From NCBI RefSeq assembly GCF_030817535.1, contig NZ_JAUSZL010000002.1, positions 1,736,001 through 1,800,000 of the forward strand: 64,000 nucleotides of DNA, read 5' to 3'. Shown piece after piece: positions 44,227-51,484 of the stretch. The first letter of the stretch is position 1. Each line of letters starts with the position of its first letter. This stretch comes from Streptomyces sp. V3I8. Its GTDB lineage: Bacteria; Actinomycetota; Actinomycetes; Streptomycetales; Streptomycetaceae. Position numbers and translations under genes: made by a program. Under the pieces are notes generated by a model. That model saw only the letters and a program-made list of their open reading frames with translations, did not search any database and was not told the DNA's origin.

Positions 44227-44576
44227 GCGTCCTCCGCCTTTTTGCGTCCCCGACTGATCGATCATCGCTCATCCGTGACGACCGGATGACAGATGAGAGA
44301 AATTTTTGGCACTCGGTGCCTTGCTAGATGGCACGGCGTGTCATACGTTGAAGAGGTCCGGGCGGCCGGCGTGCAGGGATCCTCCGTACGCCGGCTGTCC
44401 CCGCACACCACGGTGTGCGCGCCCGGACGCCTGCGTCACAGGCACCCTTCCGCGCCACAAAGCGCTGCCGACACCACCACCCTCCGCCGGACCGACGGCA
44501 CACCCCACCAGCAGCTACCCACCCCGACGTAACCCTCAGCGTCCTTCCCCGGACGCTCATCGCCGGAGGCGACACC
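44227..44576 (+). promoter_or_regulatory. ccr upstream region with paired GGCAC inverted repeats
   Basis: This 350-nt leader contains an AT-rich run (AATTTTT at about 44301) followed by GGCACtcgGTGCC (44308-44320, perfect). A second, imperfect copy GGCACggcGTGTC (44330-44342) follows; the two start 22 bp apart, about two helical turns. TAGATG between them could be a -10. The arrangement suits a dimeric repressor such as the adjacent TetR protein, but this is inference. The remaining 230 nt to the GTG start shows no reading frame I trust. Confidence 0.5.
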
Positions 44577-45914
44577 GTGAAGGAAATCCTGGACGCGATC
44601 CAGTCGCGGACGGCCACGTCCGCCGACTTCGCCGCCCTGCCGCTCCCCGAGTCCTACCGCGCGGTCACCGTGCACAAGGACGAGACGGAGATGTTCGCCG
44701 GGCTCACCACCCGCGACAAGGACCCCCGCAAGTCCATCCACCTGGACGACGTGCCGGTGCCGGAGCTCGGCCCCGGCGAGGCCCTGGTGGCCGTGATGGC
44801 CTCCTCGGTCAACTACAACTCGGTGTGGACCTCGATCTTCGAGCCGGTGTCCACCTTCAGCTTCCTGGAGCGCTACGGCAGGCTCAGCGAGCTGACCAAG
44901 CGCCACGACCTGCCGTACCACATCATCGGTTCGGACCTCGCGGGCGTCGTGCTGCGCACCGGCCCTGGCGTGAACGCCTGGCATCCCGGTGACGAGGTCG
45001 TCGCGCACTGCCTGTCCGTCGAGCTGGAGTCCAGCGACGGGCACAACGACACCATGCTCGACCCCGAGCAGCGCATCTGGGGCTTCGAGACCAACTTCGG
45101 CGGGCTCGCCGAGATCGCGCTCGTCAAGTCCAACCAGCTGATGCCGAAGCCGGACCACCTGTCGTGGGAGGAGGCCGCCGCACCGGGGCTCGTGAACTCC
45201 ACGGCCTACCGGCAGCTGGTCTCGCGCAACGGCGCCGGCATGAAGCAGGGCGACAACGTCCTGATCTGGGGCGCGAGCGGCGGCCTCGGCTCGTACGCCA
45301 CCCAGTTCGCGCTGGCCGGCGGCGCCAACCCCATCTGCGTGGTGAGCAGCCCGCAGAAGGCGGACATCTGCCGGGCGATGGGCGCCGAGGCGATCATCGA
45401 CCGCACCGCCGAGGACTACCGGTTCTGGAAGGACGAGCACCACCAGGACCCGAAGGAGTGGAAGCGCTTCGGCAAGCGCATCCGTGAGCTCACCGGCGGC
45501 GAGGACGTCGACATCGTCTTCGAGCACCCGGGCCGCGAGACCTTCGGCGCCTCCGTCTACGTCACCCGCAAGGGCGGCACGATCGTCACCTGCGCCTCCA
45601 CCTCGGGCTACAACCACGAGTACGACAACCGCTACCTGTGGATGTCCCTGAAGCGGATCATCGGCTCGCACTTCGCCAACTACCGCGAGGCCTGGGAGGC
45701 CAACCGGCTGATCGCGAAGGGCAAGATCCACCCGACGCTCTCCAAGGTGTACTCGCTGGAGGAGACCGGGCAGGCCGCCTTCGACGTGCACCGCAACCTC
45801 CACCAGGGCAAGGTCGGCGTCCTGGCGCTGGCGCCCGCCGAGGGCCTCGGCGTGCGCGACCCGGAGAAGCGCGCCCGGCACGTCGACGCCATCAACCGCT
45901 TCCGGAACGTCTGA
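44577..45914 (+). CDS. ccr: Crotonyl-CoA carboxylase/reductase
   Basis: This 445-residue protein starts at GTG 44577 after CCGGAGGC. It is an MDR-superfamily enzyme with cofactor-binding WGASGGLGSYATQFALAGG near residue 231. The four residues reported to hold CO2 in the Kitasatospora setae enzyme fall at identical numbers here: N81 (SSVNYNSVW), F170 and E171 (WGFETNFGG) and H365 (IIGSHFANY). It makes ethylmalonyl-CoA from crotonyl-CoA, CO2 and NADPH, feeding both acetate assimilation and polyketide extender supply. It is followed 10 nt later by meaA, the next pathway step. Confidence 0.96.
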   Translation: MKEILDAIQSRTATSADFAALPLPESYRAVTVHKDETEMFAGLTTRDKDPRKSIHLDDVPVPELGPGEALVAVMASSVNYNSVWTSIFEPVSTFSFLERYGRLSELTKRHDLPYHIIGSDLAGVVLRTGPGVNAWHPGDEVVAHCLSVELESSDGHNDTMLDPEQRIWGFETNFGGLAEIALVKSNQLMPKPDHLSWEEAAAPGLVNSTAYRQLVSRNGAGMKQGDNVLIWGASGGLGSYATQFALAGGANPICVVSSPQKADICRAMGAEAIIDRTAEDYRFWKDEHHQDPKEWKRFGKRIRELTGGEDVDIVFEHPGRETFGASVYVTRKGGTIVTCASTSGYNHEYDNRYLWMSLKRIIGSHFANYREAWEANRLIAKGKIHPTLSKVYSLEETGQAAFDVHRNLHQGKVGVLALAPAEGLGVRDPEKRARHVDAINRFRNV

Positions 45915-45924
45915 GGGTCCCCCC

Positions 45925-47953
45925 ATGACTGAGCGCCAGAAGGACCGGCCGTGGCTCATGCGCACCTACGCCGGTCACTCCACCGCCGAGGCGTCCAACG
46001 AGCTGTACCGGCGCAACCTCGCCAAGGGGCAGACGGGTCTGTCGGTCGCGTTCGACCTGCCGACCCAGACCGGCTACGACCCCGACCACGTCCTCGCCCG
46101 CGGCGAGGTCGGCCGGGTCGGTGTGCCGGTGTCGCACCTCGGTGACATGCGCCGGCTGTTCCAGGACATCCCCCTGGAGCAGATGAACACCTCGATGACC
46201 ATCAACGCCACCGCCATGTGGCTGCTGGCGCTCTACCAGGTCGTCGCCGAGGAGCAGGGCGCCGACATCACCCGGCTCCAGGGGACGACCCAGAACGACA
46301 TCGTGAAGGAGTACCTGTCGCGGGGCACGCACGTGTTCCCGCCGGTCCCCTCCCTCCGTCTGACGACGGACATGATCTGCTACACGGTCAACAACATCCC
46401 CAGGTGGAATCCGATCAACATCTGCAGTTACCACCTGCAGGAGGCGGGGGCCACCCCGGTCCAGGAGATCGCGTACGCGATGTCCACCCGCGATCGCCGT
46501 GCTCGACGCGGTGTTCGCGTCCGGGCAGATCCGCGAGGACCAGAAGGGGGACGTGGTCGCGCGCATCTCCTTCTTCGTGAACGCGGGCGTCCGCTTCGTC
46601 GAGGAGATGTGCAAGATGCGGGCGTTCGGCCGCATCTGGGACCGTGTCACACGCGAGCGGTACGGGATCGAGAACCCCAGGCACCGCCGGTTCCGGTACG
46701 GGGTCCAGGTCAACTCCCTGGGGCTGACCGAGGCCCAGCCGGAGAACAACATCCAGCGGATCGTCCTGGAGATGCTGGCCGTGACCCTCTCCAAGGACGC
46801 CCGCGCGCGTGCCGTGCAACTGCCCGCCTGGAACGAGGCGCTGGGGCTGCCCCGGCCCTGGGACCAGCAGTGGTCGCTGCGGATGCAGCAGGTCCTCGCC
46901 TACGAGAGCGACCTGCTGGAGTACGCGGACATCTTCGAGGGCTCGCACGTCGTCGAGGCGAAGGTCGCCGAGCTGGTCGAGGACTCGTTCGCCGAGATGG
47001 ACCGGATCGAGGAGATGGGCGGCGCGATGGCGGCCGTCGAGTCGGGCTACCTGAAGTCGCAGCTCGTCTCGTCGCACGCGAAGCGCCGGGCCCGTATCGA
47101 GTCCGGCGACGAGAAGATCGTCGGCGTCAACATCTTCGAGTCGACCGAGCCGAACCCGCTCACCGCCGACCTGGACGCCGCGATCCAGACGGTCGACCCC
47201 GCGGTCGAGGCGCGGGTGACCGCGGCCCTCCGGGAGTGGCGCGACACCCGGTACCAGCCGCCCTTCAACCACCCGCGCCCCTGCAAGGCGCTGGAGAGGC
47301 TGAAGGAGGCCGCGCAGGGCACCGGCAACCTGATGCAGGCCACCCTGGAGTGCGCCCGCGCCGGGGTCACGACCGGCGAGTGGGCGGGCGCCCTGCGCGA
47401 GGTGTTCGGCGAGTTCCGCGCCCCCACCGGTGTGTCGTCCGCGCCCGTCGCGGTGACCGCCGAGGAGGGCACCGCGATGGCCGCGATCCGCCGCAAGGTG
47501 GACCTGACCGCGAAGGACCTCGGCGTCGGCAAGCTCCGCTTCCTGGTGGGCAAGCCGGGCCTGGACGGGCACTCCAACGGCGCCGAGCAGATCGCCGTAC
47601 GGGCCCGGGACGCCGGGTTCGAGGTGGTCTACCAGGGCATCCGGCTCACGCCCCAGGAGATCGTGTCCGCGGCGGTCGCCGAGGACGTCCACGGCATCGG
47701 CCTGTCCATCCTGTCGGGCTCCCACGCCCAGCTGGTGCCCGACGTGCTGGAGCGGCTGCGCGAGGCCGGCGCCGACGACATCCCGGTGATCGCCGGCGGG
47801 ATCATCCCGAACGCCGACGCCGAGCGGCTCAGGGCCGCGGGAGTGGCCGCGGTCTTCACCCCGAAGGACTTCGACATCACCGGAATCATCGGCCGTATCG
47901 TCGACGAGATCCGCACAGCGAACAAGCTCGACCCTCTGGAGGTCCCCGCATGA
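45925..47953 (+). pseudogene. meaA: meaA, ethylmalonyl-CoA mutase-type, frameshifted by one extra base
   Basis: From ATG 45925 the frame encodes mutase sequence ([54 protein letters not shown]) up to about residue 187 (IAYAMST). Mutase sequence then continues in the next frame (AIAVLDAVFASGQI onward) to the TGA at 47951. Removing one C from the CCC at 46487-46489 restores a 675-residue protein. The distal part carries the cobalamin motif DGHSNG, then SILSGS and AGG. Coding quality is intact on both sides, so this is a very recent mutation or a sequencing error. If real, ethylmalonyl-CoA would not be converted to methylsuccinyl-CoA by this copy. Confidence 0.92.
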
Positions 47954-48924
47954 CCAGCCCCGCCCCCCAGGTCGACCGCCTGCGTCCGCGGCGTTCCTGC
48001 CTGGCCGTGCCCGGTTCGAACCCCCGCTTCCTGGAGAAGGCCCAGGGCCTGCCCGCCGACCAGGTCTTCCTGGACCTGGAGGACGCGTGCGCGCCGCTCG
48101 CCAAGCCGGAGGCGCGGCACACCATCGTCAAGTTCCTCAACGAGGGCGACTGGACGGGCAAGACGCGGGTCGTGCGGGTGAACGACTGGACGACCGAGTG
48201 GACGTACCGCGACGTCGTGACGGTCGTCGAGGGCGCGGGGCCGAACCTGGACTGCATCATGCTGCCGAAGGTCCAGGACGCCCAGCAGGTGGTGGCCCTC
48301 GACCTGCTGCTGACGCAGATCGAGAAGACGATGGGTTTCGAGGTCGGCAGGATCGGCATCGAGGCGCAGATCGAGAACGCCAGGGGCCTGAACAACGTCA
48401 ACGAGATCGCGGCGGCCTCCCGGCGCGTCGAGACGATCATCTTCGGCCCGGCCGACTTCATGGCGTCGATCAACATGAAGTCGCTGGTCGTGGGCGAGCA
48501 GCCGCCCGGCTACCCGGCGGACGCCTACCACTACATCCTGATGAAGATCCTGATGGCCGCCCGCGCCAACGACCTCCAGGCGATCGACGGCCCCTACCTG
48601 CAGATCCGCAACGTCGAGGGCTACCGCGAGGTCGCCGGGCGGGCCGCCGCCCTCGGCTTCGACGGCAAGTGGGTGCTGCACCCCGGTCAGGTCGAGGCGT
48701 CGAACGAGATCTTCTCGCCCTCCCAGGAGGACTTCGACCACGCCGAGCTGATCCTGGACGCGTACGAGTACTGCACGTCGGAGGCGGGCGGCCGGAAGGG
48801 TTCCGCGATGCTCGGCGACGAGATGATCGACGAGGCCAGCCGCAAGATGGCCCTGGTGATCTCCGGCAAGGGCCGGGCCGCCGGCATGCGGCGCACCTCG
48901 AAGTTCGAAGTCCCGGAGGCCTGA
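47950..48924 (+). CDS. HpcH/HpaI-CitE family lyase, probable malyl-CoA/beta-methylmalyl-CoA lyase
   Basis: This 324-residue protein starts at ATG 47950, overlapping the meaA stop (ATGA). It has the CitE-like barrel: RRSCLAVPGSNPRFLEKAQG, VFLDLEDACAPLAKPEAR with metal-binding acids, IEAQIENARGLNNVNEIAAA, IIFGPADFMASINM and GKWVLHPGQVEASNEIF. In the ethylmalonyl-CoA pathway this enzyme cleaves beta-methylmalyl-CoA to glyoxylate and propionyl-CoA and makes or cleaves malyl-CoA. Because of the meaA frameshift, the meaA start frame reads without a stop into this gene. Confidence 0.9.
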   Translation: MTSPAPQVDRLRPRRSCLAVPGSNPRFLEKAQGLPADQVFLDLEDACAPLAKPEARHTIVKFLNEGDWTGKTRVVRVNDWTTEWTYRDVVTVVEGAGPNLDCIMLPKVQDAQQVVALDLLLTQIEKTMGFEVGRIGIEAQIENARGLNNVNEIAAASRRVETIIFGPADFMASINMKSLVVGEQPPGYPADAYHYILMKILMAARANDLQAIDGPYLQIRNVEGYREVAGRAAALGFDGKWVLHPGQVEASNEIFSPSQEDFDHAELILDAYEYCTSEAGGRKGSAMLGDEMIDEASRKMALVISGKGRAAGMRRTSKFEVPEA

Positions 48925-48928
48925 TCCC

Positions 48929-49441
48929 ATGCAGTTCGGACGCACCTACGAGGAGTTCGAGGTCGGCGCGGTCTACAAGCACTGGCCCGGGAAGACCGTC
49001 ACGGAGTACGACGACCACCTCTTCTGTCTCCTGACCATGAACCACCACCCGCTCCACCTGGACGCCAACTACGCCGAGAACACCACCGACTTCGGCAAGA
49101 ACGTGGTGGTCGGGAACTACATCTACTCCCTGCTGCTCGGCATGTCCGTCCCCGACGTGTCGGGCAAGGCGATCGCCAACCTGGAGATCGAGTCGCTCAG
49201 GCACGTCGCGCCGACCTTCCACGGCGACACGCTCTACGGCGAGACCACGGTCCTCGACAAGACGCCCTCCCGGTCGAAGGACGACCGCGGGATCGTGCAC
49301 GTCGAGACCAGGGGTTACAAGCAGGACGGCACGCTGGTCTGCGTGTTCCGCCGCAAGGTGATGGTGCCGACCGAGACGTACATCAAGGAGCGCGGCGGCG
49401 AACAGCCCGGCCGGCCCCAGCTCAAGGAGCAGGAGAAGTAG
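48929..49441 (+). CDS. MaoC-family dehydratase, probable mesaconyl-CoA hydratase
   Basis: This 170-residue single hot-dog protein has the hydratase region LTMNHHPLHLDANYAENTTD near residues 34-53, with the catalytic His (PLH) present but Asn where the usual Asp stands. It also has VVVGNYIYSLLLGMSV and a C-terminal ETRGYKQDGTLVCVFRRKVM. Position between the malyl-CoA lyase and acyl-CoA dehydrogenase genes points to hydration of mesaconyl-CoA to beta-methylmalyl-CoA. Alphaproteobacterial Mch proteins are about twice as long, so equivalence is by context. It starts 4 nt after the lyase stop. Confidence 0.85.
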   Translation: MQFGRTYEEFEVGAVYKHWPGKTVTEYDDHLFCLLTMNHHPLHLDANYAENTTDFGKNVVVGNYIYSLLLGMSVPDVSGKAIANLEIESLRHVAPTFHGDTLYGETTVLDKTPSRSKDDRGIVHVETRGYKQDGTLVCVFRRKVMVPTETYIKERGGEQPGRPQLKEQEK

Positions 49442-49443
49442 CC

Positions 49444-50658
49444 ATGGCGCGACTCGCCCAGACCGCCGGTCTCACCGACATCCAGCGGGAGATCCTGTCG
49501 ACCGTACGGGACTTCGTGGACAAGGAGATCCTCCCGGTCGCGACCGAGCTGGAGCACCGCGACGAGTACCCGCAGGCGATCGTCGACGGACTCAAGGAGT
49601 TGGGCCTCTTCGGCCTGATGATCCCCGAGGAGTACGGGGGCCTCGGCGAGTCGCTCCTCACCTACGCGCTGTGCGTGGAGGAGATCGCGCGCGGCTGGAT
49701 GTCGGTGTCCGGCATCATCAACACCCACTTCATCGTGGCCTACCTGCTCAAGCAGCACGGCACGCAGGAGCAGCGGGAGTACTTCCTGCCGCGCATGGCG
49801 GCGGGCGAGGTGCGCGGCGCGTTCTCCATGTCCGAGCCGGCGCTGGGCTCCGACGTGTCGGCCATCACCTCCAGGGCGGTGAAGGACGGCGACGGATATG
49901 TCCTGAACGGGCAGAAGATGTGGCTCACGAACGGCGGTACGTCGACGCTCGTGGCCGTTCTCGTGAAGAGTGACGAAGGCCATACCCCTGAAGAGGTGGC
50001 CGCCGCGCCCCACCGGTCGATGACGACCTTCCTGGTGGAGAAGGAGCCCGGCTTCGGTGAGGTCCGCCCCGGCCTGACCATCCCGGGGAAGATCGACAAG
50101 ATGGGCTACAAGGGCGTCGACACCACCGAGATGATCATGGACGGTCTGCGCGTTCCGGCCGACCGGGTGCTCGGCGGCACCACCGGCCGGGGCTTTTACC
50201 AGATGATGGACGGCGTCGAGGTCGGCCGGGTGAATGTGGCCGCGCGCGGCTGCGGGGTCGCCCAGCGCGCCTTTGAGCTGGGCGTTTCCTATGCCCAGCA
50301 GCGTCACACCTTCGGCAGGCCCATCGCCCAGCACCAGGCGATCCAGTTCAAGCTGGCCGAGATGGCTACCAAGGTCGAGGCCGCCCATGCGATGATGGTC
50401 AACGCGGCACGCAAAAAGGACTCCGGGGAGCGAAACGACCTCGAGGCAGGGATGGCGAAGTACCTCGCCTCCGAGTACTGCAAAGAGGTCGTGGAGGACG
50501 CCTTCCGGATCCACGGCGGCTACGGCTTCTCGAAGGAGTACGAGATCGAGCGCCTCTACCGGGAGGCCCCGATGCTGCTGATCGGCGAAGGTACCGCCGA
50601 GATCCAGAAAATGATCATCGGCCGCAGGCTGCTCGAGGAGTATCGGCTGCAGGGCTGA
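49444..50658 (+). CDS. Acyl-CoA dehydrogenase family protein, probable methylsuccinyl-CoA dehydrogenase
   Basis: This 404-residue FAD enzyme has FGLMIPEEYGGLGESLLTYA, SMSEPALGSDVSAITSRAV, YVLNGQKMWLTNGGTSTLVA and RQAHTFGRP-like QQRHTFGRPIAQHQAIQFKL. The C-terminal FRIHGGYGFSKEYEIERLYR precedes LIGEGTAEIQKMI, whose Glu is at the usual base position. It is the last gene of the ccr cluster (2 nt after the MaoC gene) and would oxidise methylsuccinyl-CoA to mesaconyl-CoA. Isobutyryl- or butyryl-CoA dehydrogenase cannot be excluded by sequence alone. Confidence 0.88.
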   Translation: MARLAQTAGLTDIQREILSTVRDFVDKEILPVATELEHRDEYPQAIVDGLKELGLFGLMIPEEYGGLGESLLTYALCVEEIARGWMSVSGIINTHFIVAYLLKQHGTQEQREYFLPRMAAGEVRGAFSMSEPALGSDVSAITSRAVKDGDGYVLNGQKMWLTNGGTSTLVAVLVKSDEGHTPEEVAAAPHRSMTTFLVEKEPGFGEVRPGLTIPGKIDKMGYKGVDTTEMIMDGLRVPADRVLGGTTGRGFYQMMDGVEVGRVNVAARGCGVAQRAFELGVSYAQQRHTFGRPIAQHQAIQFKLAEMATKVEAAHAMMVNAARKKDSGERNDLEAGMAKYLASEYCKEVVEDAFRIHGGYGFSKEYEIERLYREAPMLLIGEGTAEIQKMIIGRRLLEEYRLQG

Positions 50659-50827: not shown

Positions 50828-51484
50828 ATGCCCCACAGCCAAACCTCTGCACCACGCGACAGCCGGGCCGGCGTACGTCTTGCGCGCGGAGCATCGCCGT
50901 GGCTCTTCCCGACCGTCGCCACCGCAGCCCTCAGCCTGGTACGCGCGCGCAAGTCCGGCGCCGCCAAGGCAGTGGCCGTGCCCGCCACCGCTCTGGCGGC
51001 AGGCATGCTGTGGTTCTTCCGCGACCCCGAGCGCGAGATCACCCAGGGCCGGGTCATCTCGCCCGCCGACGGCGTGGTGCAGAGCATCATGCCGTGGAAG
51101 GACGGGCGCACCCGCGTCGCGATCTTCATGAGCCCGCTGAACGTCCACGTCAACCGCGCGCCCCTCTCCGGCACGGTGACGTCGGTCGAGCACATCCCCG
51201 GCGGGTTCGTTCCGGCGTTCAACAAGGAGAGCGAGAACAACGAGCGCGTCGTCTGGCACTTCGACACCGAGCTCGGTGACATCGAGATGATCCAGATCGC
51301 CGGTGCGGTCGCGCGGCGCATCGTGCCGTACGTCCCACGGGGCACGAAGGTCGAGCAGGGCGAGCGGATCGGGTTGATCCGTTTCGGGTCGCGCGTCGAC
51401 ATCTACCTGCCCGAGGGCGTGGAGGTCGACGTGGAGGTCGGTCAGAAGACCGTGGCTGGGGTGACTCGCATTGACCGTGACTGA
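50828..51484 (+). CDS. psd: Phosphatidylserine decarboxylase proenzyme
   Basis: This 218-residue protein starts at ATG 50828 (MPHSQTSAPRDSRAGVRLA). It has the short-form Psd pattern: WFFRDPEREITQGRVISPAD, GVVQSIMPWKDGRTRVAIFM, SPLNVHVNRAPLSGTVTSVE and ERVVWHFDTELGDIEMIQIA. The self-cleavage Gly-Ser lies in GLIRFGSRVDIYLPEG near residue 187; the Ser becomes the pyruvoyl group. It makes phosphatidylethanolamine at the membrane. It overlaps pssA by 14 nt, pairing synthesis and decarboxylation of phosphatidylserine. Confidence 0.95.
   Translation: MPHSQTSAPRDSRAGVRLARGASPWLFPTVATAALSLVRARKSGAAKAVAVPATALAAGMLWFFRDPEREITQGRVISPADGVVQSIMPWKDGRTRVAIFMSPLNVHVNRAPLSGTVTSVEHIPGGFVPAFNKESENNERVVWHFDTELGDIEMIQIAGAVARRIVPYVPRGTKVEQGERIGLIRFGSRVDIYLPEGVEVDVEVGQKTVAGVTRIDRD

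Follow-up and report, generated by a model that had tools for sequence, protein, structure and literature searches.

The ethylmalonyl-CoA operon and the interrupted meaA gene

The DNA analysed here (the window, 64,000 bases) corresponds to bases 1736001-1800000 of contig C2 (8,846,592 bases) in a genome of 9,319,798 bases on 4 contigs. As shown in Table 1, the genes ccr–meaA–lyase–hydratase–dehydrogenase follow each other on the + strand, and this order is that of the ethylmalonyl-CoA operon. The GTG start of ccr was our choice, the first possible start being at 44415. The genome gave 47 Ccr-family matches, of which one scored above the cut-off. The lyase gene, which is CitE-like, matched TIGR01588 with 165.9 bits, under the cut-off of 443.4. 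From its position, the acyl-CoA dehydrogenase is probably methylsuccinyl-CoA dehydrogenase. The ccr, lyase, hydratase and dehydrogenase genes all gave full-length matches, and no other break was seen in the operon. The sequence-only reading had been right in naming the gene and its cluster.

Table 1. Features of the operon (window positions) and frameshift sites elsewhere in the genome (positions on contig C2).
Feature	Position	Strand	Details
ccr, crotonyl-CoA carboxylase/reductase	44577..45914	+	TIGR01751, 637.7 bits, cut-off 378.55
meaA 5' piece, 188 aa	45925..46488	+	PF01642 positions 41-224, 233.7 bits
999-codon ORF	45925..48924	+	unaltered meaA frame, continuing in frame across the next gene
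CCC run with the extra base	46487..46489	+	one base fewer in 109/109 relatives
meaA 3' piece, 487 aa + stop	46490..47953	+	PF01642 242-512, PF02310 B12-binding domain
CitE-like/malyl-CoA-lyase-type gene	47950..48924	+	ATG overlapping the meaA stop; PF03328, 149.6 bits
Mesaconyl-CoA-hydratase-like (MaoC) gene	48929..49441	+	PF19315, 68.3 bits, cut-off 26.5
Acyl-CoA dehydrogenase	49444..50658	+	PF00441, PF02771, PF02770
Acyl-CoA synthetase-like gene	1970486		candidate frameshift
dnaX, 3' part	4223980	-	two bases more than in G109 and G128
Gene without NCBIfam match, hit twice	4449316, 4449561		one base fewer, four more
3-Hydroxyacyl-CoA dehydrogenase	4461979		candidate frameshift
MobA-like gene	4468479		candidate frameshift
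Split metG (L243, L244)	4511195-4512797	-	frameshift after profile position 105 (4512482)
Unnamed gene	4556799		candidate frameshift

The meaA product was assigned as a predicted (2R)-ethylmalonyl-CoA mutase. PF01642 extended over both pieces and the B12-binding domain was found in the 3' piece, genes of the ethylmalonyl-CoA pathway lay alongside, and nearly all named hits among the 120 listed were called 'protein meaA' or ethylmalonyl-CoA mutase. The product is thus nearer to MeaA/Ecm proteins than to methylmalonyl- or isobutyryl-CoA mutases. The one continuous reading frame of MeaA/Ecm was not found, the frames differing across 46489. The gene contains an extra base, with one frame open over 45925-46488 and the next frame open from 46490 to 47953. 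Positions 46480-46489 read ATGTCCACCC, directly followed on the 3' side by GCGATCGCC. Both pieces matched adjoining stretches of the single profile PF01642, and the cut fell within the catalytic domain, between profile positions 224 and 242 of 512.

The interval 45925-47953 contained 2029 bases, equal to 676 codons including the stop plus one base. It had been claimed that two clean frames join into 675 codons when one base is removed, and this number is therefore right. The claim of a single-base insertion disrupting meaA was likewise confirmed by the open reading frames, the split PF01642 match and the 109 relatives that are one base shorter. The change had also been placed in a short homopolymer; the run is present, but it lends weak support by itself because it has only three C. 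A codon-usage model that was blind to the finding placed a frame change at the extra base; the same model made many other calls. Protein database entry P0001 gives the 3' piece as a 484-aa protein starting at GTG 46499, nine bases into the piece.

Past the extra base, the original meaA frame reached its first stop at 48922-48924 and read the lyase gene (ATG 47950) in frame. The start of the next gene overlapped the meaA stop in 64 of 80 actinobacterial loci among the matches listed. Of these 64, 14 also had the next gene's frame open as far back as the site, so that an open frame at this position is not uncommon in DNA of this kind.

Relatives and other mutase genes

Comparison with relatives had been set beforehand as a test. 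All 109 loci compared (29 from the same genus and 80 actinobacterial records among the matches listed) had exactly one base fewer at 46480-46498, with the same net difference over the surrounding 400 bases, and the extra base was shared by none of them. A sister strain was also sought. With the genome's own protein excluded, the best of the 120 protein matches listed shared 95% identity across the 3' piece. The best actinobacterial locus among the matches listed, which may omit records of this genome, reached 91%.

A search of the whole genome found no second meaA. The remaining places matching PF01642 were a MutA/MutB pair and IcmF, which are separate genes. MutA matched TIGR00642 with 589.1 bits, slightly under the cut-off, and the putative MutB, a 787-aa ORF assigned without an NCBIfam scan, adjoins it. 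The suggestion that the strain might depend on another mutase was thus not borne out, as no spare Ecm was found.

When the genus was searched with the meaA stretch, 197 of 199 genomes, including the present one, gave a DNA match at E <= 0.001. Five of these matches were weak (1.8e-10 to 1.9e-4; G037, G113, G135, G152 and G156), and among the 199 genomes no match was obtained in G010, which is only 93% complete, and G186. The seven genomes may represent natural losses of the pathway.

Conservation of the two meaA pieces

None of 109 otherwise invariant residues was changed in the 5' piece (107 taxa including the present genome), and two of 247 were changed in the 3' piece, both from V to I (91 taxa including the present genome), homologues with less than 72% identity or less than 90% coverage being left out. 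The two private changes placed the 3' piece joint fourth among the 91 taxa, which is on the high side because 85 of the 91 had 0 or 1. The frame of the 3' piece carried no further lesion.

On the branch of the present genome (G000), dN/dS of the 3' piece was 0.246, rank 179 of 260 genes counted from the lowest, in a list without the meaA 5' piece and ccr, the latter being compared separately. The whole-branch values were 0.228 for G000, 0.168 for G109 and 0.195 for G128. Pairwise values between G000 and G109 were 0.213, 0.133 and 0.073 for the 3' piece, ccr and the dehydrogenase, respectively. A block of five genes, from 46490 through the gene at 50828, showed a raised dN/dS in relation to G109 and G128 (relative value 2.44, median 1.20; rank 249 of 252 five-gene blocks), a possible sign of relaxed selection. 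When sets of five were drawn at random 20,000 times from 56 other conserved genes, 30% of the draws reached this dN/dS and 9% reached this excess, and the signal was therefore taken as weak. The meaA pieces show no clear decay.

Frameshifts in essential genes

The only metG in the assembly, encoding methionyl-tRNA synthetase, matched its profile in two adjoining pieces, positions 2-105 and 106-519, that lie in different frames. All other places in the genome scored at most 58 bits. The metG family was present in all 14 control genomes, and the gene was whole in G109 and G128. Methionyl-tRNA synthetase is indispensable to cells, and the metG frameshift therefore cannot be real. The assembly is good overall (completeness 100, contamination 0.22), but at least one single-base insertion in it is false.

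The 3' part of dnaX, a single gene in this genome, was shifted as well, with the N-terminal part intact. Frameshifts in genes that cannot be lost, the mark of indel errors in an assembly, were thus found in metG and also in the 3' part of dnaX. The essential genes rpoB and dnaE were looked up as well, and each lay in a single open frame. A second DnaE-type polymerase (745.5 bits) was observed on another contig, at C3:69154-71916.

Frameshift census in comparison with G109 and G128

Frameshifts were counted in two 400-kb stretches of G000 (sets A and B), of which 249,439 and 320,385 bases were covered by G109 and 197,531 and 276,843 by G128. For G000, G109 and G128, respectively, the codon-usage model gave 29, 33 and 49 calls for set A, and 39, 35 and 63 for set B. 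The model alone was rejected as a frameshift counter because it was too noisy, and a call was therefore counted only if a non-triplet alignment gap lay no more than 20 bases away. Gaps longer than 8 bases were left out, as were places with local identity below 0.85, gaps that further gaps offset inside 100 bases, and calls matched by a model call at the corresponding position of the other genome.

Clean coding frameshifts in sets A and B numbered 2 + 7 in G000, 0 + 1 in G109 and 1 + 5 in G128. Among the nine of G000, seven had extra bases and two had missing bases. They correspond to eight genes, because the sites at 4449316 and 4449561 share one gene, where they jointly restore the frame. Both relatives backed five of the G000 sites, namely meaA, metG, the dnaX 3' part, 3-hydroxyacyl-CoA dehydrogenase and the MobA-like gene (81 bits, under the cut-off), and G109 only backed the other four. 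One site in G109 and three in G128 were backed by both relatives. The lone G109 site was an 8-base difference, and G128 site 6130933 was doubtful, the relative having only a 33-codon ORF there. As the excess over G128 was small (9 vs 6), the count alone is not decisive.

When a third 400-kb stretch (set C) was scanned more strictly, 3 ab initio calls resulted. This set was dropped as evidence because the stricter scan missed metG in set B. One of its calls, at C2:4038836 (- strand), may be an ordinary two-gene junction.

Origin of the extra base

The extra base is most likely an assembly error, and meaA is probably ordinary and unbroken in the living strain. The absence of this base from 109/109 relatives, the impossible frameshift in metG, the frameshift count, with two of its five doubly backed sites in metG and dnaX, and the two pieces of meaA without clear decay all argue for this explanation, the metG site carrying the greatest weight. 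The step from the assembly to this particular site would be that the meaA base is one of its errors; the living strain would then produce a 675-residue ethylmalonyl-CoA mutase from a normal ethylmalonyl-CoA operon. The sequence-only reading had left the choice between real loss and an assembly or sequencing error open, and the second part is now better supported, because the same assembly splits its only metG, while the first part is less so. Points against an error are the small excess in the frameshift count, the completeness and contamination values, the intact rpoB and dnaE, the rank of the five-gene block and the two private changes in the 3' piece.

According to the Kastor paper (PMC12007338), short indels at homopolymers make up most long-read errors, and the insertions in its test genome are described there as not linked to one particular homopolymer. 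A narrow combined search for literature on frameshift indel errors in Streptomyces with PacBio polishing found none.

A real and very recent frameshift mutation, leaving the isolate without ethylmalonyl-CoA mutase, is unlikely. Ethylmalonyl-CoA made by Ccr would then be blocked before methylsuccinyl-CoA and be left for polyketide use or hydrolysis. The extra base does stand in the given sequence, and the block ranked 249 of 252 for dN/dS. Loss of the gene seems to be tolerated, because in seven of 199 genus genomes the meaA match was either weak (five) or missing (two). The gene may also not be needed on rich medium, since disruption of ccr1 in the emc operon of S. tsukubaensis is reported to have made no significant difference on ISP4 (PMC4606968). 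However, the same assembly carries the impossible metG frameshift, neither piece of meaA is clearly decayed, and ccr, lyase, hydratase and dehydrogenase all give full-length matches.

A true isocitrate lyase was sought in the genome and was not found; the only PF00463 match (54 bits) was a methylisocitrate-lyase-like protein, with 249.6 bits against TIGR02317, under the cut-off of 354.4. The ccr1 disruption in S. tsukubaensis is described as abolishing growth on acetate (PMC4606968), and S. lividans is described as having no isocitrate lyase and as thought to depend on the ethylmalonyl-CoA pathway (PMC3017869). If the break in meaA were real, no growth on acetate alone would therefore be predicted. 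The fuller picture is a little more doubtful still than the mutation itself. It would be a Streptomyces-like isolate without isocitrate lyase, with an otherwise intact operon, that has just lost ethylmalonyl-CoA mutase, in which the Ccr product goes to polyketide extender and the lyase is made partly as the tail of the 999-codon readthrough. As a naturally occurring ecm mutant that lacks the glyoxylate cycle, such an isolate would be useful for testing the effect of ethylmalonyl-CoA supply on polyketides.

A break used by the cell, by a ribosomal frame change or by separate pieces assembling into an active enzyme, is very improbable: a GTG lies nine bases into the 3' piece and both pieces stay conserved, but the extra base occurs in 0/109 relatives, so that no recoding site is conserved, the cut is inside the catalytic domain (PF01642 224-242 of 512), and by our own reasoning the ACC codon would lack a good partner one base on. 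A programmed ribosomal frameshift is likewise not supported, as none of the 109 relatives has the shift site.

With an assembly error as the preferred explanation, this is mainly a data-quality matter, and no new type of system is involved. Before a check of the reads, the assembly is unfit for arguing that the strain lacks MeaA, MetG or full-length DnaX. Protein searches already list the meaA of the window as a 484-residue protein.

Comparison with known systems

The site resembles the gene-fragmenting indels of long-read assemblies described in PMC12007338 in having a single-base insertion beside a short run and an essential gene broken too. The S. tsukubaensis ccr1 mutant, as described in PMC4606968, is comparable as a true loss of the pathway in a strain without a glyoxylate cycle, with no growth on acetate. 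That mutant was constructed and confirmed by complementation, whereas the present change is one base known from an assembly. With Streptomyces MeaA, the locus shares the gene order ccr–meaA–lyase–hydratase–dehydrogenase, and each of its two pieces aligns to complete proteins roughly 675-685 residues long, with a best identity of 95% over the 3' piece among the matches listed. It differs from them in that meaA of the present assembly spans two reading frames.
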